Positions 6,083 through 62,850 of a stretch of DNA of 64,000 bases are shown in pieces; the first letter of the stretch is position 1, and each line of letters starts with the position of its first letter. The notes under the pieces were generated by a model that was not told the origin of the DNA, did not search any database, and worked only from the letters and a program-made list of their open reading frames with translations. The position numbers and the translations under genes were made by a program. This stretch comes from Asterella californica (lineage: Eukaryota; Streptophyta; Marchantiopsida; Marchantiales; Aytoniaceae), in assembly GCA_036924285.1 (NCBI GenBank), contig JAYKYS010000015.1:3286001-3350000 (forward strand), given 5' to 3'.

Positions 6083-6093
6083 TGTACACACGT
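6083..6093 (+). repeat. Family A LTR1, first 11 bp, cut by B1
   Basis: TGTACACACGT matches the start of the other A LTRs (TGTAAGCGAA at 20472). It continues at 15855 after element B1. The last four bases, ACGT, are the target duplication of B1. Confidence 0.6.
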
Positions 6094-11505: not shown

Positions 11506-11512
11506 AAAATCC
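11470..11512 (-). promoter_or_regulatory. B1 -1 frameshift element at the Pro/Pol junction
   Basis: On the minus strand the 0-frame codons GAT TTT (heptamer GGATTTT, 11512-11506) are followed by a 7-nt spacer. Then comes a stem TACCACTAT / GTGGTGGTG, in which all nine positions can pair with three G-U pairs, around the loop AGAGCGGGATT. The Gag-Pro frame stops at 11500-11502 and the -1 frame is open into Pol. The layout is base-for-base equivalent to C and D, where the heptamer is the canonical GGGTTTT. The single G-to-A change here would be expected to weaken slipping. Confidence 0.75.
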
Positions 11513-13933: not shown

Positions 13934-13967
13934 AGTTCACACACAGAAGAAATCTCCACCCCAGACC

Positions 13968-13985
13968 TTCACGTCGAGTTCACCA
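13968..13985 (-). promoter_or_regulatory. B1 candidate primer binding site
   Basis: On the minus strand the 5' LTR end (CGATA) is followed after three bases by TGGTGAACTCGACGTGAA. It starts with TGG, complementary to the CCA end of a tRNA. I cannot name the primer tRNA. Confidence 0.55.
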
Positions 13986-13988
13986 CCG

Positions 13989-23700: not shown

Positions 23701-23715
23701 TTTTACCCCCGGACT
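23701..23715 (-). promoter_or_regulatory. E polypurine tract
   Basis: Minus-strand AGTCCGGGGGTAAAA abuts the LTR start. Confidence 0.65.
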
Positions 23716-26700
23716 AAATTTTCGCTCCGTCCTCGGAGTGAAGAGAGAACTTTCGTCGATGAAACAACTTCAACTTGTCATGGTTGACCCGATCGAATCT
23801 CCTTCCTCCCAACTCCTGAAGGTCATATGTGAAGTTGCTCCACACCTTATCTACAACAAAAGGACCAAAATATCTAGGAAGAAACTTCTTCCTAGCCCTC
23901 TTGAATCTGATAGCATCATACAACATAACCCAATCTCCGACTTGAAAAGGTTTTACCTCTCTCTTGCCCAACCGTTTGTCGTAACTCTTCTTTTGATACG
24001 CCTGAGCTCGTTCCATCCGGATCATTGCTACCGCTCGGGTCTCTTCCAACTCCATGAGTTGCTCTCTTCTTGATCTGACCACGTCTTCTCCCCTCGACCT
24101 CTTCAACTTTCGTTGCATAGTTTGAAAAGTATCCAATTCGAATTGGATTGGCAACTTGGACTCCACTCCATAAACCAATCGAAATGGAGAGTACCCAGTA
24201 GAAGTCTTTGTTGTCGTTCGGTACTCCCATAAGATGGCATGTAGCCTCTTATCCCAAGTATGTTTCGCAGTCTCAACACCAGCATCTTTGGCGAGCATCA
24301 TACAAAGTGTAAGATTGGTCTTCTCCGCAAGACCATTAGCATTTGGTTTGTATGAGATCGTTACTCGTGGCTTGATAGAAAAGTGTTGTAGCATAGCATT
24401 AGTCATGCTCCCTACAAACTCTCCTCCTCTATCCGAGATCAACTCTAACGGACATCCAAATCTTGTGATGATCCTCTCCCATAGGAATCTACCGACTTCT
24501 ATTTCATTGGTCTCCCTCAAAGGTCTAGCCTCTACCCACTTGGTACAATAGTCAGTGGCGACTACAATGTATCTATTGCCTCGAGGTGTCTTATTAAGAG
24601 GACCTACAAAGTCAATACCCCACTTCTCAAACGGCCCTAATATTGGAATTGATCTTAATGGAGGTGTTCTAGTAGACTTCAGAGCAAATGCTTGACATAC
24701 GTCGCAAGTTTTGCAATAGTCTAAACACTCCTTGAAAATCCCTCTCCAGTGATAACCCGCATCCAAAATCTTGAAAGCTATTATCTTACCAGCAAAGTGA
24801 CCTCCGCAAACAGTGCCATCGTGAAACTCGTGCATCAGCTTGAACGCCTCCTTCTGACCAACTGCTCTCCTTAGTAAGCCATCTGCTCCTTGATGAAATA
24901 GAATTTCCTCCACCATGGTGTAAGGTTTGCATCTCTTGATCAACGCGTTACGTTCTCGGGTATGCATACCTTCTGGAAAAGAGCCATCTGCAAGGAAACT
25001 CCAGATTTCCTTGTACTCGTCCGGTATCTCCTCAATGCTTGTGATGGTCATCAGATGCTCATCTGGAAATGAATCATCAAACGGTTCTTCTCCCTCATCA
25101 TCATAAGCCCTCGACAAAAGATCAGCATTCGCATGCTTTTTCTCTGGTCTATCTTCGATCACGTAATCGTATTCTGTTAGAAAGATCTTCCAACGAGCAA
25201 TACGACCTTCGGCATTAGGCTTATTAAAGATATACTTTAAAGCCTTGTGATCTGTGACTATGGAAAATTTCCCTCCTAGCAAGTAGTGTCGAAATTTCTT
25301 CAATCCAAAGATCACCGCTAATCCTTCTCGTTCAGTCACACAGTAATTCTTCTCCGCTGGAACCATCTGCCTACTAGCATAAGCTATAGGATGATCATGC
25401 CCATCTTCATCTAACTGACTTAATGTACATCCGATTGCTACATTGGAGGCATCCGTATACAAAATAAATGCTTTACTCCACTCAGGTTTAGCAAGTATAG
25501 GAGCTGTCACTAATGCCTTTTTCAGCTCCTCAAATGCTTCCTTTGCCTTCTGATCATGCACTATCAAGTCAAAATCAACTCCCTTCTTCATGTACATAGT
25601 CAAAGCTATTGCTTTGTTTGAGAAGGAAAAGACAAACCTACGATAATATCCAACCATGCCAAGAAATTGTCTCAACTTTGTCAAGTTGATCGGAAATGGA
25701 AGATCCACAATCTTCTTCACCTTCTCAGGATCTACCGCAATCCCATTCTTGGAAATGATGTGCCCTAACAGCAGACCTTCTTCGCAGCCAAAGATGCACT
25801 TCTCAGGATTTAGAGAAGCGTTGGCTTGCTCCAACCACTGCAAAACTTTGATCACATGATCAAAGTGATCCTCCTTTCGTCCGTACACGCAAAAATCATC
25901 AATAAAATCACGGACAAACTTTCCTATGAATGGTTCAAACACCTTGTTCATGAACCTCTGAAACGTGGCCGGAGCATTACACATTCCGAATGGCATCACT
26001 CGAAATGCAAATGTTCTCCAAGGAGTAGTGAAAGTAGTCAACTATTGGTACTCTTGTGCTATCTTGATCTGGTTGTATCCACTATAACCATCACCAAAGC
26101 TGTACCACTCATGATCAGCAACTTCCTCCAAAATCTCATCTATAAATGATAGAGGATAATAATCCTTCTTGGTAACTGCATTCAGCTTCTTATAGTCTAT
26201 GCACACTCGCAGCTTACCATTCTTCTTCTTGACAATCACAATGGGTGAAACCCATTCTGAGTTCTCCACCTCGTAGATGAAAGTCGCCTCCTTCAACTTG
26301 TCTATCTCCTCCTCGACCATCATTGCCGTTGTGAGATTGACCCTTCTCTACTTCTGTCGAACTGGTCTTGCGTGCTCCTCCAATTCGATTCGATGAGTCT
26401 CGAGAGTCACCTCCTTCAAATCCTTGTAGCTGAAAGCAAACACATGGATATATTTTCGAAATATATCTAGGAATCTACTTTTCTCCTCTTGAGTGACATT
26501 GATACCAAACTTCAGGGTAGAGAGTCTTCTCACAATCTCTGCCTCACTCAACTCTTCTTTGTCAGGATCTTTCTCCACTGCTGGTCGAAGCAACAAGTCA
26601 ATAGCACTAAGCTGATGTAATGATTCATCTCGACCAAATCCTTCGTCCTCAGACGAGGATTCTTGATCGTAAGAATCTCCGGTATCTACTTCTGAGACAC

Positions 26701-26749
26701 TCTGATCATCCTCCGTATCAGATTTCCAGTAGTCACTAGTGGGTCTATC
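23714..26749 (-). pseudogene. E Pol: reverse transcriptase, RNase H, integrase
   Basis: One frame runs from just after the stop at 26750 down to 23714, interrupted only by TAG at 26348 and TAG at 26042. RT shows WVSPIVIVKKKNGKLRVCID, YSFGDGYSGYNQIKIA (first Asp) and FIDDFCVYG (catalytic pair). RNase H shows FILYTDASNVAIGCTLSQ. Integrase shows a zinc-binding HDGTVCGGHF with CKTCDVCQ, then the catalytic GIDFVGPLN, ISDRGGEF and NGLAEKTN. A C-terminal RYFGPFVVDKV gives the GPY/F module. The 775-codon open part (26041-23714) is long for a decaying element. The two stops arise in Arg/Gln contexts, as from C-to-T change. Confidence 0.9.
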
Positions 26750-28600
26750 TCAGTCAGAAGTCACAACTCCAACACCCGAGAGAGGTACTATCACTCTATG
26801 ATCTCTAGGTCCAATCCGTAAGTATCCCTTGTGCCACCTATCAGTGGTGCGCACAGCTCTCAACCAAGGCCTACCTAGGAGCAAATCATAACTAGAGTCC
26901 TTTAACACTTGAAAGGACATCAATGTTTGAACTCCCATCACAGACACGACCACCTTCTCTAACACACCAAGAGGTCTTACCCGTTGCTTGTTAGCCATCC
27001 CCACGATAATGCTAGCCGGGCGAGTTGGTTCCATCCCCAACTTCTTCATCAACCTCTCCGATATGGCGTTTACAGCCGCCCCTCCATCCACCAATACGTC
27101 AGAGACGTAGTGACCATTCAACCGGACTTCAATCTTTGAAGCCCTAGTGCATACCTCTGAAGCATGCACATCCACCACACCAACTCCCACTGACTTTGAT
27201 GTCTTGCTCTTGGGTTTCTTCTTCTTGCTTCTCTTAGAACTCAATCCTCCTCTGAGTTCCCTTCGTAAGCTGGGATTAAGTGCGATCAGTTGTCCAACAG
27301 TGATGTTGGCTTTCTGAGCAGCCACATCTTCAACCACATCATATCCCGCTTGGGAAGATGAAATGGTGAAATCCGCCATCCCCAGCTTCCTTCTTGGCTC
27401 CCTTGGTGTACTCGAAACATTACTCGAACGAGTACTTCTACTTGCTGACTCCTCCATGAAAACCGGTTCATCAGAAAATCGAGTTCTTTTCCTTTCTTGA
27501 GCTAAAAGCTCCACCGGTGCATGAGAAGAGTTTGAACTCTCTCCTTTCTCGTAGATGGGATCTCGTACGACATCGATAGTAGCCACCCCCTTGTCTCGTC
27601 CTTGTGATGGATTTCTTCCACCCACATTCATTCTGACAGCTTCGGCACCTCTTGCTCCGTTGTTAAGACAATTTCGCTGGAAATGAGAACCTCCACACGT
27701 CCAACAAGTGATTCCTCCAAAGTTACCTTGGTTGCCTCCAAAGTTACCTTGATTTCCTCTGTTAGGATTGTTGTCGTAACCTCTTTGACCTCCTCCTCCA
27801 CCTTTGTTTCTCCATTCTCGTAACTGCACCACATTTATCTTGAGATCCGCAAGAGTGTCAGTGATGCTCTTCAGCTCGGCATGAAAATCAGAGGTGGCAA
27901 TAGATATCGTTGTTGGGACAAACGGTCTTGGCACCACCGTTGGAGTAGGAGCTGACGTTGAAGCAACCACCAATTGTGATGGTGCAGGTGCTATCGTCGT
28001 GACTACACCAGGAGTCGGAGTCGACACCAGAGCAGCATGATGAGGTTGGATGATATCTCCTTCATCCAAACTCTCTTCCATGTTTGTCGCAATCTTGATG
28101 GCCTCCGCTTTGGTTGCTGGTTTCTCGTACCTCACTTGGGTTCGAATTGAAGGTCTCAACCCTCCCATCAAGTTCTTGGTCAGCACTGCTCCAATCCCCG
28201 CCATCGTTAGCTCCACATTGTCTCCACTCTTCCGTAGGACCGTCCGAAACCGTTGCTCCAACTTATCCACCCTTTCGGTATATTGCCGAACTTTCTCGTC
28301 GTCTCGTTGCTTCAAATGAGTAAGCTCCACCATGAGTTTCTCATAACTCTCTTCTGGAAGAAATTCTTCGATGAGTGCATTACTCAACGTCTCCCATGTG
28401 TCCTCAACTGCACCAGGTGTCTAGCTCTTCACTCAGTCTTCATACCACGTAAGAGCAAAATCTTCTAAAAACTCTGGCAGTAACAACACCCATTCTTCCT
28501 TCCTTCTCACGTTGTTTCCGATGCAACCCCTTTTGAAGTCTCGTACAAATGGTTTTACATCTTCATTGTCCTTCCCATGAAACACTGGTAACTTCCTCAT
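26750..28600 (-). pseudogene. E Gag and retropepsin
   Basis: The frame starts at an ATG at 28600 (MRKLPVFHGKDNEDVKPFVR) and includes LPEFLEDFALTWYED, a common Ty3/gypsy Gag motif. It is broken by a TGA and a TAG near 28430 and is then open for 545 codons (28387-26750). The capsid region carries LKQRDDEKVRQYTERVDKLE. A Gly/Asn-rich stretch (GGNQGNFGG, repeated) precedes the zinc knuckle CWTCGGSHFQRNC. The protease loop reads VLVDGGAAVNAIS, with DGG in place of D[ST]G, followed by YDLLLGRPWL. The TGA at 26750 separates it from pol in the same frame, so gag-pol was probably a single polyprotein. Confidence 0.85.
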
Positions 28601-34405: not shown

Positions 34406-35368
34406 TAGAAGAAGTCCTGGTGAAGCAGTATTCAAGGTAAGTACCAGAAGCAAAAAGAAGTCAAAATCCCATCAGAAGGAGATCAAGAAGAAGAAGCAGC
34501 GTAAAGAGAGGTCACCCTTCCCTGAGCGGCCTTCTTCTCCTGCTTACGACAGAGAAGATCCGAAGTACTATGCTCCTGACATTAGGTAAGAAGTTGAAGC
34601 GATCATGCAAGAAGAGCTGGAGAAGCGACGGAAGATAGTACAGCAGCTTCCTCCATCAACTACGGCAGCCCATGTCTCACGGAACAGCTTCCAATCGAGA
34701 GAAGACACCATTCTGGTCTTCCATCCAAAGAAGTAGCTCCTACATCTTCTATGTTGGAAACATCAGTTACTCTTCTGAAGCGTTCCCCTTATGACTTCTT
34801 GTGAGATTTGTGGAATCAGGAGGCAGATGTGACCTTCCAACAGCTTTTGGATGACAATGCTGATTACAGGAAATTGTTACAATATGTCCTTCGAGGATCG
34901 AGAAAGAAGAGAACAGTGAAACTTCCCCAGAGTACCCCGATCCTAAGGATAGAGCATGAGGACTTAGGAGCCCCAGAGCTTGATATGGAGATCCATGGCT
35001 GTCTTCTGAAGAAGGTACCCATTGATTCCGGCTCCGGAGTTAACATCATGACTGAAGAAACTGCGCATGCCCTAGGCTTCACTAAGTTCCAGCCTACTCC
35101 GAGAATCCTCAGAATGGCGGACCAGACCAGAAGACGACCTTTGGGGCAACTGAAAGATGTCTTGACGGTAATTGAAGGATTATCTTTTTATCTCACTTAC
35201 ATCATTTTGCGATCTGTAGCTAAGGTTGGATATCAAGTGTTGATAAGAAGACCATTGCGGTATGCTGCAAATGTAAATACCGATTGGAGAAGACATCGTT
35301 TGAGGTTTCTCAATCCTACACCCAAGCCGGGTGAGAAGACCAAAGTCTCACATTGGACATCAAGGTGA
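34406..35368 (+). pseudogene. Family A retropepsin
   Basis: After a Lys-rich linker with stops near 34588 and 34733, an open frame of 186 codons (34808-35368) encodes the aspartic protease. VPIDSGSGVNIMTEETAHAL holds the canonical DSG catalytic triad, followed by LGQLKDVLTVIEG and a degraded LIRRPLRYAA in place of ILGRPWL. It contrasts with the DHG and DGG loops of the younger elements in the window. A frameshift near 35335 leads into the RT frame. Confidence 0.8.
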
Positions 35369-36494
35369 AACTCCTTCTACGACTGAGGGGTACACGTCAG
35401 AAGACTCAGCTATGTCTTCTGACATTGATGAACGATATGATGAGTTTGTGGTGAATAACTTGTGTACTACGGAAGTAGCAGAGATAGCAGAAGAAGTGAT
35501 CTGTGGATACATTGAGTGCTACGAAATTGCGGAAGAAGAGCTTCTAGAAGACGAAAGTACTATTTTCTCTTCGGAAGACCCGACAGTTAGTCTTCCAAAA
35601 GATGAAAGTACTGTCTTCTCTTCAAAAGATCAGTTAGCTGATCTTCCAGACGACGAATCTGAACTGGAAGAAGCTCCCAAACCGGAATATTTTGGTGCCA
35701 GTGAGTACAGTCACACTGAAGGAATGATGAACCTTGATGATCTTCAAGATATGGAGGTTGCCTCAAGGAAGAAGCTGAAACTTTCCAAGGTGATCAAGGG
35801 TCAGCAGTTGGAAGACTTCAGAGAACTCCTTACAGAGTTCCAGGACGTCTTCGCTTGGACCATAGAAGACATGAAGGGCATACCTCGAGAACTGGGAGAG
35901 CATCGCATTGACTTGTTGGAGGGCGCTGTTCCTGCACGGCAGAGGCAGTATCGACTCAACTTCAAGTACTCGCTTCTGGTGAAGGATCAGATCGATCAAT
36001 ATCTGAAGGCAGGAGTCATCTTCCCAGTACTTAGTAGTGAGTGGGTAGCTCCTATTGTCATCGTGCCGAAGAAGTAGACAGGTAAGATCCGAGTGTGTCA
36101 GGACTTCCTGAAGCTGAACTTGGCCACGAAAAAGGATCACCATTCTTTATCTTTCATCGATTCTGTGTTAGATCAGGTAGCAAGACATGAGTTCTACAGC
36201 TTCCTGGATGGGTATTCTGGGTACAATCAAGTTTCAATCAGAGAAGAAGACAAGTCGAAAACCACTTTCACTACTGATTGAGACACGTACGCATACAATC
36301 AAATGCCGTTTGGTTTACGCAACACACTCGTCACATTCCAAAAACTGATGATCACGATCTTCAAGGAGTATCTTCGTACTTTCATGGAGATCTTCTTGGA
36401 TGATTTTTGTGCTTTTGGATCGAGAGAAGATCACCTGATATTTCTGAGGAAGTATTTTTTGAAGTGTAGAGAGCATCATTGGCTCTTCTCCTGA
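35331..36494 (+). pseudogene. Family A reverse transcriptase
   Basis: The 249-codon open frame to 36077 carries an acidic connector and the RT N terminus (EFQDVFAWTIEDMKGI, LKAGVIFPVLSSEWVAPIVI). TAG at 36075, TGA at 36279 and TGA at 36492 interrupt the same frame. Between them, YSFLDGYSGYNQVSI gives the first catalytic Asp and IFLDDFCAFGS the catalytic pair. The F-x-DD-F-C/S motif is Athila-like. It is clearly inactive. Confidence 0.85.
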
Positions 36495-38020: not shown

Positions 38021-38733
38021 TGTCGTATCGTGGACCGGCTCCTATCTGAAATTCAAACTTCGATGCTTGTCGCTCCAAAGACACTCATGAGAAGACAAGC
38101 TAGGCCACTGCTTACGGACTTTTGGCACCATTTCGGATCTTCGCTTTCATCACATCAGTGGATAGAGCTCCTTGTCAGCATTCCATAGGCACTTTGTCTA
38201 CTTCGTTTGGACGCTGTCGTATTGTACATAGGTCTGTACAGTGAAAAGTATTACAGAGAGATTTTTTTTCTATATTGTGTAAAGGAAGCTGCCCTGCAGC
38301 TTAACAAGCTAGGTAGGAGCTAAGCTGGAGCTATGCTTGACAAGCTGCCCCCTAGCTTGGGTTGGAATATCACCCCTAAGGGAGTCGAAAGACATCAGAA
38401 TGCAAAGCTCGACGAGGAGATCGACCTCATGCTTCTAGTTTTGACAGAAAGTGTTTTAAGCAATAGTTAGTACGAGTTTTAGGCTGTGAAGTATGTGAAA
38501 GAGAGAAATCGGTCGATTCCGATTCGTGACTCGAACTCAGAATCGGATAGCGTCAACGTGTAGGTGTTCACAAATACTATAGTTTTGACTCCTTGTTCAT
38601 TAAAAACGGAGTTGTATAGAGAAGGGAGTTGTACAGAGAAGTTAGTGTAGAAAAGGCTACTAAAGATTTTACAGAAAAATTTCTTCAGGTAAACATATGT
38701 ACAAAAGTTTTTACCTTCTTGAACGGAACCAAA

Positions 38734-38798
38734 GGCCATCCCAGTGATAGGGCGCCTGCCTAGGAGGGAAGTGGTCTCAGGATCAATCCCCCCTGGCC
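38734..38798 (+). repeat. tRNA-derived (SINE-like) module in the C 5' LTR
   Basis: The 65 bases start GGCC and end GGCC. They contain CAGTGATAGGGCGCCTGCCT, very close to the D arm and anticodon arm of many tRNAs, and GGATCAATCC, which fits the Pol III B-box pattern GWTCRANNC. About 260 further bases with strong local hairpins follow, closed by an inverted repeat (GCCATCCTGAATATACTAT and its near complement at about 39040-39060). The same module occurs at 47183 and, reversed, at 58579 in element D. It is not a functional tRNA gene, because the anticodon arm does not fold properly. Confidence 0.5.
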
Positions 38799-39194
38799 TC
38801 TGGTTCCTATTCCGGCATGTTGGCCTCCTGGAAGGGAGTCTATGTTGGATATGCAGCCACGTCCTGCATATCTAAGGGCGGGAGACCGGTATCTCCCTTA
38901 ATCGTGAGCTTCCTGGCCTAAGCCTCCGCATGCCATCCTGAATATACTATGGGAGATACCTGGTGCGCATATGGGGGGGCTGTAAGCCCTGTGGGGCAGC
39001 CTCATAAGTGTTGGGGCTTCGGCCTACATTGGATGGCTTGTAGTATATTCAGGGTGGCATCAAGATGGCATCGAGGGCACGGGAAACTTTTGCTGATTAT
39101 TATGTACGCATAAGGACAGCAGGGGAACAGCTTTAGCAGGGGCCTTAAAATTGAAGCGGAAGCGGACATTTTTCTGAGAAATGTTTCTTAGAGA

Positions 39195-39600
39195 GCTTGA
39201 AGCGAAAGATTGAAGCGGAAGATTACAGCGGAAACGGACGATTACCGCGGAAGCTTGAAGCGGAATATTACAGCGGAAGCGAAAGATTACCACGGAAGCT
39301 TGAAGCGGAAGGTTACAGCGGAAGCGGAAAACTACAGCGGAAGCGGAAGATTACCGCGGAAGCTTGAAGCGGAATATTACAGCGGAAGTGGAAGATTACC
39401 GCGGAAGCTTGAAGCGGAAGGTTACAGCGGAAGCGGAAAACTACAGCGGAAGCGGAAGATTACCGCGGAAGCTTGAAGCGGAATATTACAGCGGAAGCGG
39501 AAGATTACCGCAGAAGCTTGAAACGGAAGGTTACAGCGGAAGCGGAAGATTACCGCGGAAGCTTGAAGCGAAAGATTACAGCGGGAGCGGAACTCTGTAC
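39195..39600 (+). repeat. 45-bp minisatellite in the C 5' LTR
   Basis: Units of about 45 bp contain GCGGAAGCTTGAAGCGGAA and end ACAGCGGAAGCGGAAGATTACC. They alternate TATTACAG with GGTTACAG types. Because the unit is a multiple of three, several frames stay open (KLEAEYYSGSGRLPR repeated), but position inside an LTR and open antisense frames argue against coding. Confidence 0.8.
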
Positions 39601-40188
39601 GCATAAGGACAGCAGGGGGCAGCTTAGCTAGGGCTCTGCTTCTGATAAGTGACTGGGCTTATAAGGACATGACGGGGGCAGCTTAAGCTGGGGCCTTAAC
39701 TTTTAGGTTAAATGCCTACGGCGACTTGGTATCGGGGGACAGTTTGAAAAGGATTTTTCGGAGAGAGGTGAAGCGGAAGGAGGAGGATTACACGAAGGAG
39801 AAGCTAGGAGGCTGGGAAAAGATCAAATTGCTGACAGATTGAATTGGGAGATCATCGTAGGGAGAGGGGCAGGAGTTTTAAGCTTGGACGTTGTCCAATA
39901 AACTGTACGGAGGAGAAATTACTCTCAGGAGGCAGTTTGATTGAGAGAGATCATTTGAAAATCTACGGAGGACTTTTGATCGACGTATGATCAAATTTTT
40001 GAGAGTTTCAGTTGAGGCAAAGAGAGGAATAAGATTCATGGGTCCAAATTTCACTATTAGGTTTGGATTGAGACGTACTTGGTAGACTTTTGGTTGAAAA
40101 CTGATTGACGGGAGAAAAAGACACGCAAGAGAGGAAGAGAGAGAGATTTTCTTTACAGTTGAAGAAATTGATGATGCAGCTACACTGA

Positions 40189-40194
40189 AATAAA
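40189..40194 (+). terminator. AATAAA polyadenylation signal, C 5' LTR copy
   Basis: AATAAA about 195 bases before the LTR end. The same site in the 3' LTR (48670-48675) would serve transcript ends. Confidence 0.4.
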
Positions 40195-40391
40195 GTTATT
40201 TGGATCTTGAGAGACCTATCTGTGTACCTAAGGTGTGCTGGAGTGCTTGTTTTTGTAAACAGTGGTCACAAGAGGCTGTGGTTTGAGATTTCATCGTTGG
40301 CAGCAACCTATTTTCCTTTCTGGTCGTTTTTCTCTGATCGGTCACAGTCAGGAGGTCCGCCCTCTCCAAGAAAGACTCTCAACTCTACATC

Positions 40392-40409: not shown

Positions 40410-40451
40410 CAATTGGGGTGATTGATTTGGAGAATTGACTGAATTGAGAAA

Positions 40452-41852
40452 ATGGAACACAGTGCTGCCGTACAAGGTGTAGCTGCTGCTCAAGGTGCTC
40501 CTGTTCAAGGGACTCCGAGTCAAGATGGAATTGGCTCTCAAGGAGGGCCTACGGTGGTTCCAACAGCAACAGCACAGCCTGCTGTAGACACGTCTCAGAT
40601 TCTTCAGGCGTTGGCTGCCTTGATTCAGCAGCAGCCTGCAATTGGGGGAGCTGAGCAGAAGTCCACAAGGGCATTACAAGCAATTGTTGGTCGATGTGGA
40701 CGATTTGATGGAAGAGATGTTACTAGGTACTTGCGGGAGTATGTGGTTGAGATGGAGTTGGTCAGGGCACCTGAAGTTGAGGTAATTCTAAGCTTTGAGT
40801 TGACTGTTGTCCCTGAACTGAGAGAGAAGGTGAGAAATTTACAGAGAAGACATTTAGGTGGGTGGACTCTGTTTGAACGTGCACTGAGAGAAGAGTTTCT
40901 AGAAGAGGACTCTGAAAGAGTCACCAGAAGAACCCTTATGGATTGGATAGAGCGTCAGCCTGGACGTTCCATGGGATTGAATGAGGTAATTCGTGAGTTT
41001 GAGAAGAGGTACTCTCAGCTTTCTGGTCTGGAGAAGTTGACGCTGGATGCTAGGAAGACGGAGTTGTTCTTGGGGGCTCTGGATGAGTTCACAGCAGATA
41101 GGCTTTGTTTCATGTTGGCTGATCGAGGGACTGAAGGGGGAGTTACATCTGATTGGAGGAGAGTGGAAGAAGCAGTATCTACCCTTGCTAGGCAACGTCG
41201 TGGTAGGATGGTGTTACAGTTAGAAACCTTACCAGAGCAGCAGAGAGTAGATCCTCAAGTTCATGTAGCTCCTCCTACAATACCTCAGGCACCTATTGTG
41301 ATTCCTCAAGCACCCATAGTGGTTCCCCAAGTGATTCCTCAAGCGCCTGCAGTACCTATCCCAACACAGAGAGGACCTAGACAGCAACAGCGACCTGCTG
41401 AGAACCGAAATCAGAATAATTTGATAGAAGAGCTCACTCAACAGCTGAGAGATTTGAGGGTTGAGATGGCAGACTTGAGGAGAGACCAACGACCAGTTGC
41501 GCCAGGTGCTCGACCTGTAGGAGGAACCTTTACAAGGAGATGTATTTGGTGCGACAGCCCAGATCATCTCAGAGGAGACTGTCAAGACTTGGCGGTTGCC
41601 TTGGGAGAGGACGTAGTCAATTATCAGAATAACAGGTTGTATTTAACAGCCACGGGGCAGCCTCTGAACACATATTTTGGGAGAGGAGGAATGAGGAGTT
41701 CTCTTCCAGCACTTACTGACGCGAATACTACAGCGATGACTGCGGGTTCTGCAGAGGCTGATGTGTATACTGGGAAGATTGAGGTGCGCGCTAATCCAAC
41801 TATGGTTGAGCAGGCTAATGAGGTCTCAGTTGAAATGATGAAGAGGTGCTGA
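40452..41852 (+). CDS. C Gag
   Basis: The open frame has 466 codons from an ATG 60 bases after the LTR. The N terminus is Gln/Gly/Val-rich. The capsid-like region includes VTRYLREYVVEMELVRAPEV, TLMDWIERQPGRSMGLNEVI and EFEKRYSQLSGLEKLTLDAR. A Pro/Gln/Val-rich linker follows, then a short helical segment (LTQQLRDLRVEMADLRRDQ) and the CCHC zinc knuckle RCIWCDSPDHLRGDC. It would package the RNA and form particles. The end at 41852 is a local break: the sequence before protease (SIRRATGWRDP) lies in another frame with a one-base indel. In B and D, Gag and Pro share a frame. Confidence 0.85.
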   Translation: MEHSAAVQGVAAAQGAPVQGTPSQDGIGSQGGPTVVPTATAQPAVDTSQILQALAALIQQQPAIGGAEQKSTRALQAIVGRCGRFDGRDVTRYLREYVVEMELVRAPEVEVILSFELTVVPELREKVRNLQRRHLGGWTLFERALREEFLEEDSERVTRRTLMDWIERQPGRSMGLNEVIREFEKRYSQLSGLEKLTLDARKTELFLGALDEFTADRLCFMLADRGTEGGVTSDWRRVEEAVSTLARQRRGRMVLQLETLPEQQRVDPQVHVAPPTIPQAPIVIPQAPIVVPQVIPQAPAVPIPTQRGPRQQQRPAENRNQNNLIEELTQQLRDLRVEMADLRRDQRPVAPGARPVGGTFTRRCIWCDSPDHLRGDCQDLAVALGEDVVNYQNNRLYLTATGQPLNTYFGRGGMRSSLPALTDANTTAMTAGSAEADVYTGKIEVRANPTMVEQANEVSVEMMKRC

Positions 41853-43044
41853 AAGCATTAGGAGAGCTACTGGATGGAGGGACCCAGTGGATGCAACTTC
41901 TATTCGAGCATTTTTAGAAGCAAGCAGTGAGCAGGATGTCATGCTGGAAGACAAAAGAAGACGGGATGCTTCTGATTTAGATGCAGGGGTACCAGAGGAT
42001 AGTGACCGTCGAAGGGTTACGAGGAGGAGAGCAGCGGAACCATCACCATCTGTATCAACTGGTAGATTTCCTGCTGCAGAGGATATACCTTCTACCTCTA
42101 CAGCTCCACCACCTGCAGTAGATCCTATGGAAGGTGTACAGGATTTGCCACAAGAGACTACTACTCCAGATAGAGTACGGGGAAAGAGATTTACAGCACA
42201 GGAAAAGGGGAAAGCTCCAGCTTACAAGTTAGCGGCAGACATCGAAACAACAACAGACTTGCGTGTTGTTCTGGAGCAACGCATTTTGGATGCTAGAGTT
42301 GAGTTTACTCTTTGTGAAGTGCTTGGTATCGCAAAGAGAGAGTTTCATGAGTTGATAATAGACATCATGAAGAGAAAGAGACAGGTGGTGTTGACTGAAC
42401 AAGTGAGTAGTCAGATGGTTGGAGCAGTAGATGCTATTGGTGTTGATCCGTTCAGAGGTGATAAGTATGAGGCATGGGTTGCTGGTCCTGCTGTTATTGA
42501 GAATGAAGATGAAGAGTATGAGGAGGATAGGTCAAGCGCGGACAGCGATTTCAAAGAAAAGCACTGGGCAAGAGCGACAACTGAGACGCAGGTTCGACTT
42601 GGAGGACTTTCTGAACCAGTGCCTGCACTTGTGGATCACGGGTCGGAGATCAACATCATTTCCAAAGAGGTGTATGAGAAAGGGCAGTGGCCAATCGAAA
42701 GAAATCATGGTTGGGTACTTCCTGCAGCAAATAATCAGAAGGGTGAGTTATACGGAGCTTGTCCTAATATGCGTGTGAAGATTGGAGATGTAGAGGTTGA
42801 TCAACATTTCTTTGTACAGTCGTCTGCCTCCTATCATGTCATACTGGGCCAACCATACATCACCGCTGTTCGAATGGAGACAAAGGTGATGAACGATGGG
42901 TCTCATTATGCCAGAGTTCGGAGTCCTGATGACAAGTACTCAGTACAGTTTTTGACGGTTCGTTCAAGACATGAACGGAACCGACAAACCCTTAGAGATT
43001 CTCAGACGAAGAGATGTAAGGGTTTTCACAGTCCACTCCTGTAG
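41853..43044 (+). CDS. C retropepsin region (Gag-Pro C-terminal part)
   Basis: The frame is open from the SIRRATGWRDP segment near 41857, with 385 codons from 41887. A charged linker with EDKRRRDASDLDAG and a conserved segment YKLAADIETTTDLRVVLEQR and VEFTLCEVLGIAKREFHELI precede the protease. The protease loop is PALVDHGSEINIISKEVY, with DHG as in B and D, and the later YHVILGQPYI. The frame ends at TAG 43042-43044, 16 bases after the slippery heptamer in which a -1 shift gives access to Pol. Confidence 0.87.
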
Positions 43045-43062
43045 AGCGGGAAGACAGGGGTG
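43020..43062 (+). promoter_or_regulatory. C -1 frameshift element at the Pro/Pol junction
   Basis: GGGTTTT at 43020-43026 is in the correct register (G GGT TTT) for slipping. A 7-nt spacer (43027-43033) is followed by a 9-bp stem CACTCCTGT / ACAGGGGTG (43034-43042 and 43054-43062, one G-U) around the loop AGAGCGGGAAG. After a -1 shift the frame reads FSQSTPVEREDRG and continues open through all of Pol. B and D keep the same geometry with different stem bases. Confidence 0.88.
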
Positions 43063-46000
43063 TAGAACCTACTGTTGAGGTCCCGTCAGAGTTGGAAGCG
43101 AGGCATGTACAGAGGTCTGGAGACAAGTGTGGTGTACAGAGTTGGCAGTCTGGATTGCTGATGTTTGAGGCAGATGGATGGATTCGATTTACAAGAGTTG
43201 AAGATATGGAGAAAAATACAAAAAGATGGGTGGTGAAACAGGTATCAGAGTTGTGGCGTGTAGGAGTTCTACCTGAAGACGAAGTGGTTTCTGGGTTGTT
43301 TGAAGAGTTTATGTCTGTACAGTCAGTTGTCGGTTGGTTAGATAATGTGAGTGGATTGGTGGAAGGGAAATATAGTGTGGCGGTGATCCCTATCCACTCT
43401 CGACGCATATATGAGGAGATTGCTACATACGTGCAGTTCTTTCCTCATCCGATGCAGAATAATGAGGGGAGAGAAGTAAGTTGTTGGTGTGCATTCTCTC
43501 AAGAAGTAGACGTCCATGCGAAGTACAAATCTGTACTGAGAAAGGTAAGACCGGTAGCAGCTCAACTACGTGCTAACTCCCAGCAGCAAGTACAGTTAGT
43601 GGGGACTGAGCATATATTGCGTGATCATAGACGAGTAGGGCACCAATTTACTGAGGAGACATTGAAGGAGCTCCAGATAGGAGGGGGTGATTTCTTGACT
43701 GAGGTCGAGAAGGCAGTGTTTGAACAGATGATAGTGAAGCATGGTAAAGCATTCTCTTTTTCAGCAGAGGAGATAGGTTGTGTAGACCCAAAGGTTATAG
43801 CGCCTATGGTTATATTCACAATCCCTCATGTGCCTTGGGACCTGAAACCGATCCCAGTCCCTCGTGCTTTGTTGCCTAAACTCATCGAGTTGTTGAAGGA
43901 GAAGGTACAGATGGAGATACTTGAGCCGTCTATGGGGCCATATTCTAGCAGGTGGTTCACTGTACCCAAGAAGTCAGGAGCTTTGCGTTTTATTCAAGAC
44001 CTACAGCCTGCAAATAACGTAATCATTTGCAATGTTGGAACGGGTCCTGTGATTGAAGAGGTAGCAGAGGCATTTGCAGGGAGAGCTATCTATTCGATAG
44101 GAGATCTATATTCTGGTTATGATCAGTTCCAGCTGGCTGTGAAGAGTAGAGATTTAACTACTATGCGTACGCCCCTGGGGTTGATGCGGATGTGTACTCT
44201 TCCACAAGGAGCGACAAACTCGGTGGCTCATATGCAGAATGCGATGCATAAGGTACTAAGGGAGTTTGTGCCTGATGTTACCATTCCGTTTCTAGATGAT
44301 ATTCCTATAAAAGGTTGCGCGATTGAAGATAAGGATGGAGCACTTGCGAATGGATGTAGGAGATTTGTTGCAGATCATATCAGGGATGTAGAACGTATCT
44401 TGACTCGACTGGAGGAGGTGCATCTCATCCTGTCAGGAGCTAAGTCCAAGTTTGGTGTGTTTGAGATTTTAGTGGTTGGACATCTGTGTGGTGCTTTTGG
44501 AAGGCGACCAAACCCCGAGAAGGTTGAAGCTATAGCTAGGATGGCAGACTGTAAGAACATCACGGAGGTTCGACGCTTTCTAGGTGCTTGTGTATTTTAT
44601 CGCTTATCAATTCCTCATTATGCTCATGTTGCTGAGCCTTTGTATGCATTATTGAGGAAGGGTAAAAGGTTTGTATGGACCTCATTCCATAGAGAAGCTA
44701 TGAATAGGCTGAAGGAGGCTCTACAGTCTCCACCTGTTCTAAGAAGAGTAGACTACGGATGTGGAAGACCTGTCATTGTCACAGTAGATACTAGTCCAAA
44801 GGCGATTGGCTGGGCAATAGGTCAAGATGATGCGGATGGTATGCAGCTTACCTCTAGGTTTGGAGCTAGGATCTTGACAAACAGGCAACGAGATTATCCT
44901 CAGGTGAAGCGTGAATTGTGGGGAGCGGTGACAGCGATGAAGACAGACCGTGAGTTTCTGATTGGTGCTCATGTAGTTCTAGAAATGGATTGTCTACCTC
45001 TACTAGGCATGATATCCAACTGTAGCACGCCAGACATAGCGATGTTACTTTGGATTGCCTATATTGGAAGCTTGAACCCAGAGCTGAAGCATATAAAAAG
45101 AAAGGAGAATATGGTCGCAGATATGTTGTCAAGAGCTCGATTTGTGGACGAGGATGTCATGATTTCAGAAGCTGAGGAAGAGGAGGGAAAGGATGCTCAG
45201 TGCCAGGTTAATCGACGGGCTGCGAACTTGGAGCCGTTGATGTTTAGAGAAGAGCTTTACACAAGTAGACTTCGTGGCATAGGATATTATCTGAGCTTGT
45301 TGGAGAGGCAAGAGAGGTGGAGCAAAGTAGAGTTCAGAGAGATAAGGAAACAAGCTTACAACTATCTTCTGCATGATGAGTATCTTTGGAGACGACCACA
45401 GAGGAGAGATGGGATGTTCATACGAGTAGTTGACGATCTGCAGACTAAGCAGCAACTAATGAATGAGTTCCATGATACTTTGTGGGCCGGACATCGAGGG
45501 ATTTGGGCTACCTATGTCAAGTTGAAGGAAAGGTATTGGTGGAAAAGTCTGTACCAGGATGTGATGAACTACGTCAGTTCCTGCTTGCATTGCCAGTTCT
45601 ACTCAAAGATGCGGTATAGGGACGGTCTCGTGCCAACTTATCCGCCTTGCATTCACTTTCAATGGGTTCTCGACTTGGTGGTGATGCCTCTGGGGTTATG
45701 GGGCATGCGATATTTGGTTCTGGCTCGTGAGGATCTCTCCAACTTTGTAGAAGGGCGAGCCTTGAGGACGAAGACCACAGAGGGGATATGTAAGTTTGTT
45801 CTTGAAGATATTATTTGTAGATATGGGTCTGTAGGAAGGCTACGTGCAGATAGGGGAGAACTACGTGGTACGGAAGCGAAAGAGTTTTTTGCTCGATATG
45901 GTGTGAAGCTCAAGCTTACTACTGCGATGAATCCAGAGGGGATTGGCAAGAGCGAACGAGGACATCCATCAATAGTCCAGGCTTTGGTGAAGGCGTGTGA

Positions 46001-46373
46001 TGGTAAGCATAGAGAGTGGCCTAGGTTACTCCCTTTTGCTTTATGGGCAGATAGAACAACTCATTGTTCTACTACAGGATACATGCCTGTTGAGTTAATG
46101 CTAGGACAGAAACCAATGATGCCAGCAGAAGAAGACTGTCCTACCTGGGCTACCTTGCCATGGGAGGACAATGTGGACCGTGTGCAGCTTCTCTCACTAC
46201 GAATCAGACAGCTAGAATGTAGAGAGGAGGATCTCGTTGAAGCGCAGCGACGGCTGAAGGCGGCTCGACTTGGGAACAAGGAGAGGTTTGATAAGACTCA
46301 TAGACTTCGACCAAAATCGATACATACGACAGCACATTGGAGAACCAACACTCTACAATTCGAAAGTTTTTGA
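43027..46373 (+). CDS. C Pol: novel N-terminal domain, RT, RNase H, integrase
   Basis: A 1093-codon frame from 43092, open back to the frameshift site, with no needed ATG. About the first 165 residues form a domain I do not recognise (WIRFTRVEDMEK, VAVIPIHSRRIYEEI, SCWCAF). RT follows near residue 230: LEPSMGPYSSRWFTVPKKSG, SIGDLYSGYDQFQLA near 335 and PFLDDIPIKG near 400. RNase H starts near 560 (IVTVDTSPKAIGWAIG). Integrase zinc site is near 795-835 (HDTLWAGHRGIW, CLHCQF). The core Asp residues are near 861 (WVLDLV) and 919 (ADRGEL), with the Glu near 954 (KSERGHPSI). The frame ends early at 46373 after a small deletion near 46322 that removes GDWVL-type sequence kept in B and D. Confidence 0.92.
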
Positions 46374-46663: not shown

Positions 46664-47182
46664 TGTCGTATTGTACATAGGTCTGTACAGTGAAAAGTAT
46701 TACAGAGAGATTTTTTTTCTATATTGTGTAAAGGAAGCTGCCCTGCAGCTTAACAAGCTAGGCAGGAGCTAAGTTGGGGCTATGCTTGACAAGCTGCCCC
46801 CTAGCTTGGGTTGGAATATCACCCCTAAGGGAGTCGAAAGACATCAGAATGCAAAGCTCGACGAGGAGAGCGACCTCATGCTTCTAGTTTTGACAGAAAG
46901 TGTTTTAAGCAATAGTTAGTACGAGTTTTAGGATGTGAAGTATGTGAAAGAGAGAAATCGGTCGATTCCGGTTCGTGACTCGAACTCAGAATCGGATAGC
47001 GTGAACGTGTAGGTGTTCACAAATACTATAGTTTTGACTCCTTGTTCATTAAAAACGGAGTTGTATAGAGAAGGGAGTTGTATAGAGAAGTTAGTGTAGA
47101 AAAGGCTACTAAAGATTTTACAGAAAAATTTCTTCAGGTAAACATATGTACAAAAGTTTTTACCTTCTTGAACGGAACCAAA

Positions 47183-47247
47183 GGCCATCCCAGTGATAGG
47201 GCGCCTGCCTAGGAGGGAAGTGGTCTCAGGATAAATCCCCCCTGGCC
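47183..47247 (+). repeat. tRNA-derived module in the C 3' LTR
   Basis: Same 65-base module as 38734-38798, with one change in the B-box-like core. Confidence 0.5.
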
Positions 47248-47639
47248 TCTGGTTCCTATTCCGGCATGTTGGCCTCCTGGAAGGGAGTCTATGTGGGATA
47301 TGCAGCCACGTCCTGCATATCTAAGGGCGGGAGACCGGTATCTCCCTTAATCGTGGGCTTCCTGGCCTAAGCCTCCGCATGCCATCCTGAATATACTATG
47401 GGAGATACCTGGTGCGCATATGGGGGGGCTGTAAGCCCTGTGGGGCAGCCTCATAAGTGTTGGGGCTTCGGCCTACATTGGATGGCTTGTAGTATATTCA
47501 GGGTGGCATCAAGATGGCATCGAGGGCACGGGAAACTTTTGCTGATTATTATGTACGCATAAGGACAGCAGGGGAACAGCTTTAGCAGGGGCCTTAAAAC
47601 TGAAGCGGAAGCGGACATTTTTCTGAGAAATGTTTCTTA

Positions 47640-48070
47640 GAGAGCTTGAAGCGGAAGATTACAGCGGGAACGGAAGATTACCGCGGAAGCTTGAAGCGGA
47701 AGGTTACAGCGGAAGCGGAAGATTACCGCGGAAGCTTGAAGCGGAATATTACAGCGAAAGCGGAAGATTACCGCGGAAGCTTGAAGCGGAAGGTTACAGC
47801 GGAAGCGGAAACTACAGCGGAAGCGGAAGATTACCACGGAAGCTTGAAGCGGAATATTACAGCGGAAGTGGAAGATTACCGCGGAAGCTTGAAGCGGAAG
47901 GTTACGGCGGAAGCGGAAAACTACAGCGGAAGCGGAAGATTACCGCGGAAGCTTGAAGCGGAATATTACAGCGGAAGCGGAAGATTACTGCGGAAGCTTG
48001 AAACGGAAGGTTACAGCGGAAGCGGAAGATTACCGCGGAAGCTTGAAGCGAAAGATTACAGCGGGAGCGG
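47640..48070 (+). repeat. 45-bp minisatellite in the C 3' LTR
   Basis: Same units as in the 5' LTR with a different number and order, including one shortened unit near 47805 (GGAAACTACAG). This shows slippage since insertion or during reverse transcription. Confidence 0.8.
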
Positions 48071-50532
48071 AACTCTGTACGCATAAGGACAGCAGGGGGG
48101 CAGCTTAGCTAGGGCTCTGCTTGTGATAAGTGACTGGGCTTATAAGGACAGGAGGGGGGCAGCTTAAGCTGGGGCCTTAACTTTTAGGTTAAATGCCTAC
48201 GGCGACTTGGTATCGGGGGACAGTTTGAAAAGGATTTTTCGGAGAGAGGTGAAGCGGAAGGAGGAGGATTACACGAAGGAGAAGCTAGGAGGCTGGGAAA
48301 AGATCAAATTGCTGACAGATTGAATTGGGAGATCATCGTAGGGAGAGGGGCAGGAGTTTTAAGCTTGGACGTTGTCCAATAAACTGTACAGAGGAGAAAT
48401 TACTCTCAGGAGGCAGTTTGATTGAGAGAGATCGTTTGAAAATCTACGGAGGACTTTTGATCGACGCATGATCAAATTTTTGAGAGTTTCAGTTGAGGCA
48501 AAGAGAGGAATAAGATTCATGGGTCCGAATTTCACTATTAGGTTTGAATTGAGACGTACTTGGTAGACTTTTGGTTGAAAACTGATTGACGGGAGAAAAA
48601 GACACGCAAGAGAGGAAGAGAGAGAGATTTTCTTTACAGTTGAAGAAATTGATGATGCAGCTACACTGAAATAAAGTTATTTGGATCTTGAGAGACCTAT
48701 TTGTGTACCTAAGGTGTGCTGGAGTGCTTGTTTTTGTAAACAGTGGGCACAAGAGGCTGTGGTTTGAGATTTCATCGTTGGCAGCAACCTATTTTCCTTT
48801 TTGATCGTTTTTCTCTGATCGGTCACAGTCAGGAGGTCCGCCCTCCCCAAGAAAGACTCTCAACTCTACAACGCCTAGTGGAGAAGTTACAGGACTCGAA
48901 AGATGGAGAAAACAAGCTAGGCTCCAGCTTACGGGCTTTTGGCACAACTTCGGATCTTCACTTTTATCACATAGATGGGTAGAGCTCGTTGTCAGCTTTC
49001 CATGGGCATCTTGTCTACTTCATTTGGACACCTACTGGAGAAGTTATGCGACTCGAAAGAAGGAAAAATCAAACTAAGCCCTAGTTTACTTGCTGACTGG
49101 GTATTTGCAGCCCCATGCGTTATATTAAAGACGCAAGGGCCTGCTTCCTCATTATTGAGAGAACTTCGTACGTACAGAGACTGTGACAAGGGGGCTGCTT
49201 AAGGGGCTTGCTTGTTCTTGCGATCTGTCGGTGGACGTTTTGGAGAATTGGGAAGTCCAATACACGCGTGCAAGGTGTCATCGAGTTCAGATCTGTGCAG
49301 GCTACGCACAGGTTAAGACGGTTTGAGAAGATACGGATCGGGGGTTGTGTACTGAGAGAAATTGAGATGCAGGAAGTAGATTTGGAGTTTTCAGTTACAT
49401 GTGAAGGAGAGTTGGACCGTCCGGGTCATTCCAGAGTCCAAACTTGTTGTCCTTGGATCCATCGAGATCAAAACAACGAGTTCTTCAGGAAATTGAAGAC
49501 GACACGAAGTTTCATCGGACGGTTTGGGAGTTTTGAGTGAAATTGGCTCGCAGGGAAGCGCTTACATCAGATTTTTGTGCGCCTGCGATCTGAGATTGGG
49601 TTGTTCTTCACGATCGGTGAGCCAAGCTCTTCGTTCTTGATGCCTACGCGATCAGGGAGTCTTCATGTACGCATAAGAGAAGATTGTACGTGAATTGGAT
49701 TGTTGGTTTGGGTGTGGTGAGCAAGTTTCAGTCGCAGGGAGCTGATTTACGTCAGTTTTTTGCAAGATGCGACCAAATTTCTTGCGTGGTTTTGCAAAGG
49801 GAACTCCAAACGGCTTGTTTGGAATCTTGTTGGGTTCAGGGTAGCTAGATCTATCTGCCAGAGAAGACAGATATCAGTTTAGACGATCCGTTTGTGCGGT
49901 GTGTGCGGTTTTAAGCCGCAGGGAGGAATTTTTGAAGGTTCGGTCACCTGCGACGATATCTCGGCTGTTGGGAGTCGGATCTGAAGGTTTCTTGGGTTAA
50001 CCGAGTCAGCGGAGGAGACCCTATCGACATCTGAAGTCCGTTCGACGAAAGGAGGAAGTTCACAGATAGATCTTTTTGGTATCTTCGCTACGGGTTTTGC
50101 TCTTTTGAGTTCGTTAGAATTCTGGTTGGCTATATACAGCTTGTGGTAGCTAGCTTTAGCTAAGAACTTGTACATGGATGTGGTTTGGACTTGGGTTTGG
50201 ATCGCGTGATACTGATGTGGCTCTACTTGTTAGCAAAGAGAAGTTTCTCTTGCTTGGAGCTACGCTTCGGTGTTTTTGGGTCAGGGTTGTGATTCAAGGG
50301 TTGTTTTTAAGGGCTTTGAAGCAGGTTACAGACCGCTCTGGTCTCTTTTTCAGTTCCGTGTTCTTAGGAGAAAGAACCGGCAGTGTACATACATTTGGAG
50401 TGTATATATCGCAGCGTTCGTTTTCGTGGTTGTTTTTCTCTGTCTTGTCTTTGTTTCAGCACACAACATCTCCACAGCCAGGAACTCACGTTTTCCTAGA
50501 CATCCTTCACGTAATATCCGACACGACACCGT

Positions 50533-62600: not shown

Positions 62601-62843
62601 CTATACGTCTCTCCACCTGCCTCCTACTTCTTTCAGTAAGATCTTCTACTCTTGTAAATTCACTCCAATCCTCACAACTCAAACTCAACAAACCAGATCT
62701 CCAACTTGGTACTCTATATACATTCTCAGAACCTCGAGCAGCCTCCTCATTAGTCTCCTGTGATCCCTTGGGCTGCTCAGACGGGATCATAGTAGTCTTT
62801 GATCCTTCACTCTTGTCTTCCCGCTCTACAAGAGTGGGTTCTA
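59602..62843 (-). CDS. D Pol: novel N-terminal domain, RT, RNase H, integrase
   Basis: The 1062-codon frame is counted from an ATG at 62790 but open back to the frameshift site (FLEPTLVEREDKS). About residues 1-195 are the uncharacterised domain (WSEFTRVEDLTERSRRQVER, VVIPIHSPKVYEEIVSYL, AVCWCGSRHEAEVHAKY). RT: LEPSMAPYSSRWFTVPKKSG, SIGDLFSGYDQFQLA, PFLDDIPMKG near 410. RNase H: VILTVDTSPKAIGWAVG. Integrase: HDTLWAGHRGAW with CLHCQF, then WVLDLVAMP, RADRGELRG and KSEREHPSI for the DDE triad. All catalytic residues are present. Expression would be by -1 frameshifting from Gag-Pro. The TAA at 59602 cuts off the C-terminal module. Confidence 0.92.
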
Positions 62844-62850
62844 AAAACCC
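62808..62850 (-). promoter_or_regulatory. D -1 frameshift element at the Pro/Pol junction
   Basis: Minus strand: GGGTTTT (62850-62844) in register G GGT TTT, directly before the TAG stop (62843-62841). A 7-nt spacer TAGAACC follows, then a perfect 9-bp stem CACTCTTGT / ACAAGAGTG (62836-62828 and 62816-62808) around the loop AGAGCGGGAAG. The -1 frame is open into Pol. Relative to C, one C-G pair is T-A and the G-U pair is T-A. Confidence 0.9.

Follow-up and report, generated by a model that had tools for sequence, protein, structure and literature searches.

A candidate pseudoknot-stimulated -1 ribosomal frameshift signal at the Gag-Pro/Pol border of Ty3/gypsy retrotransposons in the liverwort Asterella californica

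In a stretch of 64,000 nucleotides (nt) from the liverwort Asterella californica (assembly GCA_036924285.1, contig JAYKYS010000015.1, positions 3,286,001 to 3,350,000 of the forward strand; "the window" hereafter) three Ty3/gypsy retrotransposons, termed C, D and B1, carry the polymerase (Pol) in the -1 register relative to the frame that contains the protease (Pro), which raises the question of how Pol is translated. We consider it very probable, on the strength of sequence comparison, that the elements use programmed -1 ribosomal frameshifting stimulated by a pseudoknot at the Gag-Pro/Pol border, and that this holds for a Phygy-like lineage of Ty3/gypsy elements in non-seed plants. The -1 shift, already named in the original prediction, is supported by an in-register slip heptamer at constant distance from the stem, by compensatory stem changes across six families and by the location of Pol in the -1 frame.

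The original prediction had placed one construct at the Pro/Pol junctions of C (plus strand, 43020-43062), D (minus strand, 62850-62808) and B1 (minus strand, 11512-11470), and it was found there with the parts described: a heptamer in zero-frame register (GGGTTTT in C and D, GGATTTT in B1), a 7-nt spacer, a stem with all nine positions paired (one G.U pair in C, three in B1) and an 11-nt loop beginning with AGAGCGGGA. The Pro frame reads the slip site as G_GGT_TTT or G_GAT_TTT and stops five codons after the heptamer in C, immediately after it in D and one codon later in B1, and the overlap between the Pro and Pol frames measures 10-25 nt. As had been claimed, the -1 frame is open into Pol, for 1117 amino acids (aa) in C, 1082 aa in D and 435 aa in B1, where it is interrupted by a break and resumes at 10036-8429. 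The junctions combine a heptamer of the X_XXY_YYZ type in register, an overlapping -1 open frame and a predicted structure whose distance downstream lies within the 5-9 nt expected of such signals; GGATTTT departs from the strict XXX pattern, and such slip sites are known. A pseudoknot involving the loop had earlier been left open: the loop segment GCGGGA can pair with a sequence 15-21 nt past stem 1 in all three elements (UCCCGU in C and D, UCUCGC in B1), and stem 1 and this stem 2 can together form a predicted H-type pseudoknot. The parts of the signal are located as follows.

43020-43026, plus strand: C, slip heptamer G_GGT_TTT (GGGTTTT)
43034-43042, plus strand: C, stem 1, 5' arm CACTCCTGT
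43042-43044, plus strand: C, TAG that ends the zero frame (Pro), where stem 1 meets its loop
43046-43051, plus strand: C, stem 2, 5' arm GCGGGA, within the stem-1 loop (43043-43053)
43054-43062, plus strand: C, stem 1, 3' arm ACAGGGGTG
43081-43086, plus strand: C, stem 2, 3' arm TCCCGT, 18 nt past stem 1
62844-62850, minus strand: D, slip heptamer GGGTTTT, with TAG directly after it
62828-62836, minus strand: D, stem 1, 5' arm CACTCTTGT
62819-62824, minus strand: D, stem 2, 5' arm GCGGGA
62808-62816, minus strand: D, stem 1, 3' arm ACAAGAGTG
62781-62786, minus strand: D, stem 2, 3' arm TCCCGT, 21 nt past stem 1
11506-11512, minus strand: B1, slip heptamer GGATTTT
11490-11498, minus strand: B1, stem 1, 5' arm TACCACTAT, one further G-C pair being possible
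11481-11486, minus strand: B1, stem 2, 5' arm GCGGGA
11470-11478, minus strand: B1, stem 1, 3' arm GTGGTGGTG
11449-11454, minus strand: B1, stem 2, 3' arm TCTCGC, 15 nt past stem 1

According to the proposed mechanism, most ribosomes would translate Gag-Pro and terminate 0-13 codons beyond the heptamer, while a fraction would be stalled by the pseudoknot with their P- and A-site transfer RNAs on G_GGU_UUU or G_GAU_UUU. The pseudoknot would comprise a stem 1 of about 9 bp, starting about 7 nt downstream of the heptamer, and a stem 2 of about 6-9 bp formed by the loop with a sequence 14-21 nt past stem 1 (in the window's genome). The stalled ribosomes would slip one base back and go on into Pol, yielding Gag-Pro-Pol as a minor product. 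That the shift occurs, how efficient it is and what role it has in the Gag-Pro:Pol ratio are matters that we infer.

To see the junction in other copies, the genome from which the window comes (516.7 Mb, 773 contigs) was searched with six protein queries, namely C, B1, D, two of the relatives introduced below (L005 and L001) and the Physcomitrium patens protein P0034; for each query the best 150 scored matches (120 for P0034) out of 9,615-15,848 first-look candidates were considered. Three further families, F, G and H, emerged, and 111 junctions were fetched (30 of C, 29 of B1, 20 of D, 13 of F, 7 of G and 12 of H; a 30th B1 copy, L076, was left out, its junction not being covered). The expected conservation held for the heptamer GG[AG]TTTT, found in 108 of the 111 copies, and for stem 1, which has at least 8 of 9 pairs in 108 and all 9 in 87. 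Stem 2 is fully paired (6/6) in 95 copies, the -1 frame is open across the 90 nt tested in 108, and heptamer, stem 1 (at least 8/9) and stem 2 (at the lenient level of at least 5/6) occur together in 106. In all 30 C copies a TAG lies five codons past the slip site, and in 23 of them no stop closes the -1 frame before the fetched DNA ends; the same is true of 15 of the 26 heptamer-bearing B1 copies. The claimed order, Gag-Pro followed by Pol in -1, fits the open frames that end at the junction in many other copies and reach lengths sufficient to encode both Gag and Pro (about 866 aa in C, 862-863 in D, 810-826 in B1, 781 in F, 842 in G and 803 in H), and it fits the Gag and Pro matches that share one frame in B1 and in the relatives L001, L002b, L003, L004 and L006. 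Two other forms of recoding were rejected: stop-codon readthrough because Pol lies in another frame, and a plain +1 shift, for C, D, B1, F, G and H, because the +1 frame closes after 3-21 codons (15 in copy L111).

The strong covariation originally claimed for stem 1 was thinly based with three sequences alone; it stands on paired changes across 56 distinct junctions of six families. Fifty-eight different 80-nt junctions starting with GG[AG]TTTT were collected; one pair proved identical and copy L119 was left out because it shifted family G, leaving 57 rows counted and 56 distinct (L055, L056 and L064, which have no such heptamer, stand outside the alignments and are counted among the 111 copies). 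Apart from one inserted base in L111, no gaps were needed to align the 56 junctions from the heptamer across the spacer to the end of stem 1. Standard pairs fill 96.7% of the 840 cells (15 pairs by 56 junctions), as against a shuffled mean of 85.8%, and sliding the partner by 1-3 columns lowers pairing to 37.5-51.8%. The junctions have a covariation score of 0.511, compared with 0.304 (standard deviation 0.012) in shuffles, and 119 cells are changed on both sides against 38.6, neither value being reached in 500 shuffles; these shuffles and slides carry no correction for relatedness. Changes on both sides affect 8 of the 9 pairs of stem 1 and 2 of the 6 pairs of stem 2, for which the clearest series is GCGGGA/UCCCGU in C, GCGGGA/UCUCGC in B1 and GCGAGA/UCUCGC in H. 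An earlier count on 41 hand-picked junctions gave the same picture, as did a reduced set in which a single row stands for each family or subfamily (eight in all), with 95.8% of cells paired, a score of 0.583 against 0.348 (0/500 shuffles) and nine pairs changed on both sides (3/500 shuffles). By these alignments, the predicted stem 1 covaries, and the predicted stem 2 is conserved and partly covarying.

The predicted fold was also compared with chance, using a simple scorer based on stacking energies that looks for a stem together with pairing of its loop, applied to dinucleotide shuffles and to other positions. With one stem defect allowed, the combined score of stem and pseudoknot was matched by 0/400 shuffles in each of C, D and B1, and stem 1 alone by 0/400, 4/400 and 1/400, respectively. 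Among 940 other positions within 1 kb the pseudoknot score was reached at 8 for C and at none for D and B1, and that of stem 1 alone at 8, 15 and 0. A stricter, defect-free scorer gave 1/500 shuffles for C and 0/500 for D and B1, with no other position reaching the score (0/2280, 0/2230 and 0/2280). When 329 slip-like heptamers were scored (both strands of the window, one strand of the contigs L001-L008 described below), the top six pseudoknot scores all fell at Pro/Pol junctions; of the 13 scores of -23 or lower, 11 fell at Gag-Pro/Pol junctions, including the GGGAAAC of L007. Rfam, searched at its gathering threshold, gave no matches.

Relatives were sought outside the genome as well. A scan of bacterial genome contigs with the Pol alignment yielded eight contigs, six from a Trichormus assembly and one each from a Synechococcales and a Beijerinckia assembly, all of which we take to be eukaryotic contamination. 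Trichormus is a genus that includes the symbiont of Azolla, so the six contigs from its assembly are probably Azolla fern DNA, and the junction layout accordingly appears to recur in probable fern elements. The heptamer is GGATTTT in L001, L004, L005 and L006, GGATTTC in both L002 copies and in L008, and GGTTTTT in L003. The score of stem plus loop is reached by 0-1 of 400 shuffles in seven of these eight junctions and by 14/400 in L008; in the position control it is reached at 0/940 positions in L001, L003, L004 and L005 and at 0/531 in L006. The -1 frame is open for 1171 codons in L001, 1151 in L004, 909 in L005 (to the contig end), 234 in L002b, 93 in L006 (to the contig end), 58 in L002a and 9 in L008.

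Predicted proteins give a further view of the junction. Among the 120 Pro homologues listed of 187 found (a second protein search listed 120 of 134), 90 contain a VQFLT-like core, and in 71 the C-terminus lies no more than 45 residues from that core; of these 71, 61 have D or G followed by F and 0-6 residues at the C-terminus, a lenient pattern of which a few matches may be fortuitous. Such endings are expected if GAT or GGT followed by TTT closes the Pro frame. The named relatives among the best matches of C Pro are Physcomitrium patens, Riccia sorocarpa, R. fluitans and Adiantum nelumboides, with the P. patens and Riccia proteins ranking highest, and the P. patens protein P0034 is 64-67% identical to copies in the window's own genome, many of them at the places of B1-family matches. 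Viral contigs, searched with Pro and also with a Pol alignment, yielded no relatives.

The contig from the Beijerinckia assembly, L007, represents a distant element of Ty3/gypsy type (33% identity) with a 982-aa frame that ends in an aspartyl protease; at L007:3284-3290 it has GGGAAAC followed by TGA, with Pol in -1 and a pseudoknot score of -26.8. A protein search with its Gag-Pro part gave one match only, 100% identical over the part.

The predicted structure withstood most of the computational tests applied, though with exceptions. Several observations weigh against programmed -1 frameshifting as a uniform property of these junctions, or lessen the force of the numbers above. The copies are best-scoring matches, which biases them towards well-preserved ones, and a stem-2 match arises in shuffles in 42% of cases at 5/6 and in 4.9% at 6/6. 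Stem 2 is fully paired in 9 of 11 D copies but in none of nine D2 copies, where it can pair one base over, and no G or H copy has all nine pairs of stem 1. Conservation broke down in L055 and L056, with AGATTTT as the heptamer, intact stems and open frames of 491 aa each, in L064, which lost a base (open frame of 544 aa), in L119, whose junction is rearranged, and in L111 of the H family, which has an extra base in stem 1 and, in the stretch fetched, Pol in frame with Pro, so that the slip would be bypassed. As to covariation, the number of pairs changed on both sides was reached by 11 of 500 shuffles, the number of further pair types was not above that in shuffles (188/500), and the slide control favours the structure, which was derived from the same sequences. 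A stem defect was allowed in the scorer after poor scores of L005, L006 and L008 (the contiguous-stem version missed L005 and scored the other two weakly), and the position control is imperfect for L002a (5/754), L002b (5/940) and L008 (39/803).

A further exception is the probable Azolla element L003, in which Pol lies in the -2 (or +1) frame, open for 1100 codons, with the pseudoknot kept. Its Pro frame ends in CAG_GTT_TTT_TAC_TAG (L003:2498-2516), with an 11-bp stem and a 7-bp loop pairing, and its Gag-Pro frame of 761 aa and its Pol are both open in this arrangement; arteriviruses shift by -2 at sites of the G_GUU_UUU type. The protein ends of P0042 (4 members) and P0200 (6 members) match the L003 Pro end, and their members may represent a single locus that is present in more than one assembly; in G001, a pattern search gave no exact copy but this one. 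A broader reading, in which the cassette would be a lineage-wide expression switch that dates back to the ancestor shared by bryophytes and ferns, with L003 moved from -1 to -2 (or +1) while keeping its stem and loop pairing, seems to us doubtful.

Among the rival explanations, splicing survives best, and we still regard it as improbable. On this view Pol is reached by removal of a short intron that spans the border, as has been reported for Ogre elements, and the hairpin is incidental; in favour of this, three Riccia predicted proteins contain the -1 peptide TPVERD and join the frames near it in a manner resembling predicted introns. Such introns may, however, be forced on the gene models by the change of frame, the Pro and Pol frames in the window overlap rather than being separated, the heptamer is retained in nearly all copies, and the stems covary. 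Separate initiation of Pol, by internal entry or by reinitiation past the Pro stop, with the structure acting on termination and restart, is a shade less credible again. In all three elements the Pro stop does lie within or beside the structure, but their -1 frames share no ATG position (the first Met is residue 48 in C, 21 in D and 63 in B1), and the in-register heptamer would be left unexplained. Finally, conservation through protein coding or shared ancestry alone, around the -1 peptide xPVERE and with no RNA function, was rejected as very improbable: the loop does encode ER[ED] in the -1 frame of C, D and B1, but the stem arms change together on both sides, and probable Azolla elements keep the pairing while the peptide differs (TGCGGGG/CCCCGCA in L004, GGGACA/TGTCCC in L001).

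The elements in which the proposed frameshift signal resides have the following frames and long terminal repeats (LTRs).

38215-40389: C, 5' LTR (end approximate), mate at 46664-48870; target duplication ACGC (by eye)
40443-41852, plus strand: C, Gag-like open frame, stop to stop, with a zinc-knuckle motif recognized by eye
41842-43044, plus strand: C, Pro open frame with DUF4100 and aspartyl protease, both below the curated cut-off
43020-46373, plus strand: C, Pol open frame in -1 with reverse transcriptase, RNase H and integrase zinc domain
62841-63899, minus strand: D, Pro open frame, its upstream end being a stop in this copy
59602-62850, minus strand: D, Pol open frame in -1
11500-12951, minus strand: B1, single frame from zinc knuckle (by eye) to Pro, with TGA one codon past the heptamer
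10214-11521, minus strand: B1, first part of Pol (reverse transcriptase) in -1
8429-10036, minus strand: B1, second part of Pol (RNase H, integrase), past the break in this copy
6087-7958 and 13984-15854: B1, LTR pair, 98.5% identity; target duplication ACGT (by eye)

Pfam searches (E <= 0.001) detected reverse transcriptase, RNase H and integrase zinc-binding domains in Pol of all three elements, and Pol of C is 74% identical to that of D and 57% to that of B1. DUF4100 is under the curated cut-off in the Pro frame of C and just over it in D and B1; the aspartyl protease matched in C alone, below threshold, and the protease of D and B1 is assigned by similarity to C. The Gag-like frame of C gave no Pfam match and is so labelled from its position and zinc-knuckle motif. 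In the window copy of C the Gag-like and Pro frames are offset near 41842 (41842-41852), presumably a defect private to that copy, since many family members have one long frame at the junction. The LTRs of C share 95.7% identity (2220 columns, 58 gaps) and contain tandem repeats spaced by 45 bases (39111-39664 and 47547-48144) that differ in copy number. Two 100% matches to D Pro lie 8,339 bases apart on genome contig C52 (window 62856-63290 and about 8.3 kb further on), which suggests a tandem arrangement of elements.

Two other gypsy-like elements were seen in the window. One (23714-28420, minus strand) has Gag-Pro and Pol in a shared frame, without the -1 layout, and carries in-frame stops, one of them just past Pro; in the other (34805-36077) a protease-like frame and the next frame are offset by +1. 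DUF4100 (PF13352) is here part of retrotransposon Gag-Pro frames, and no mention of it was found in the open-access literature searched.

Among known systems, the signal of alpharetroviruses (avian sarcoma-leukosis) has the gag-pro/-1/pol order, with the protease in the Gag frame and a slip heptamer followed by a downstream RNA structure. The present elements share the single Gag-Pro frame and Pol in -1, a likeness of layout and not of membership in Retroviridae: they are Ty3/gypsy elements of non-seed-plant hosts, with another heptamer and unrelated RNA sequence. Betaretroviruses have a pro-pol -1 site of the GGAUUUA type, which GGATTTT resembles and which likewise lies at the Pro/Pol border, together with a second shift at gag-pro, whereas those of the present copies that have long open frames carry Gag and Pro in a single one.

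Within plants, the lineage of C, D and B1 resembles Phygy, a group of Ty3/gypsy non-chromoviruses defined, with NCGN target sites, in passages of a 2019 survey (PMC6317226). The likeness covers the non-seed-plant host, the order protease, reverse transcriptase, RNase H and integrase, a coding region that fills most of the internal part of C, and 4-bp NCGN target duplications in both elements examined by eye (ACGT in B1, ACGC in C). No chromodomain was found in the open frames of C, D and B1 (Pfam, E <= 0.001), a weak one being possible. No frameshift signal is described for Phygy in these passages of the survey. The same passages report one polyprotein in most groups of plant LTR retrotransposons, splicing in Ogre, and a first open frame that is GAG or GAG-PROT in some plant groups. 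The original claim that Gag-Pro with Pol in -1 is unusual for plants calls for a caveat: GAG-PROT as a first frame is known from some plant groups, while no -1 signal in plant LTR retrotransposons was reported in the open-access literature searched. Passages of a 2016 review (PMC5009743) state that the plant elements with separate frames known in 2003 had pol in +1, that animal LTR retrotransposons exist with pol in -1 relative to gag, and that plant sireviruses have pol in +1 and a conserved covarying stem. These systems share with ours recoding at a polyprotein border and, in sireviruses, the stem; they differ in recoding at gag/pol borders and, for both plant types named, in having pol in +1. 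The word "frameshift" is absent from the accessible main text of PMC12885004, PMC6911290 and PMC9033089, and the accessible parts of PMC3350952 and PMC8775202 have no bearing on this -1 signal.

Taken in this setting, the mechanism of -1 frameshifting is textbook knowledge and its use in plant LTR retrotransposons is, as far as the literature searched goes, the new part. Retrotransposons of moss-, liverwort- and fern-like plants carry a conserved RNA signal at which some ribosomes probably slip back one base, so that Pol would be made only as a minor extension of Gag-Pro, and a protease in the Gag frame would be a stable layout in Ty3/gypsy elements. Dozens of natural junction variants, from high-copy families and also from probable fern elements, offer material for testing what plant ribosomes need for -1 shifting. 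Annotation would improve as well, and the signal could explain the separate or apparently spliced Pro/Pol models in Physcomitrium, Riccia and Adiantum.
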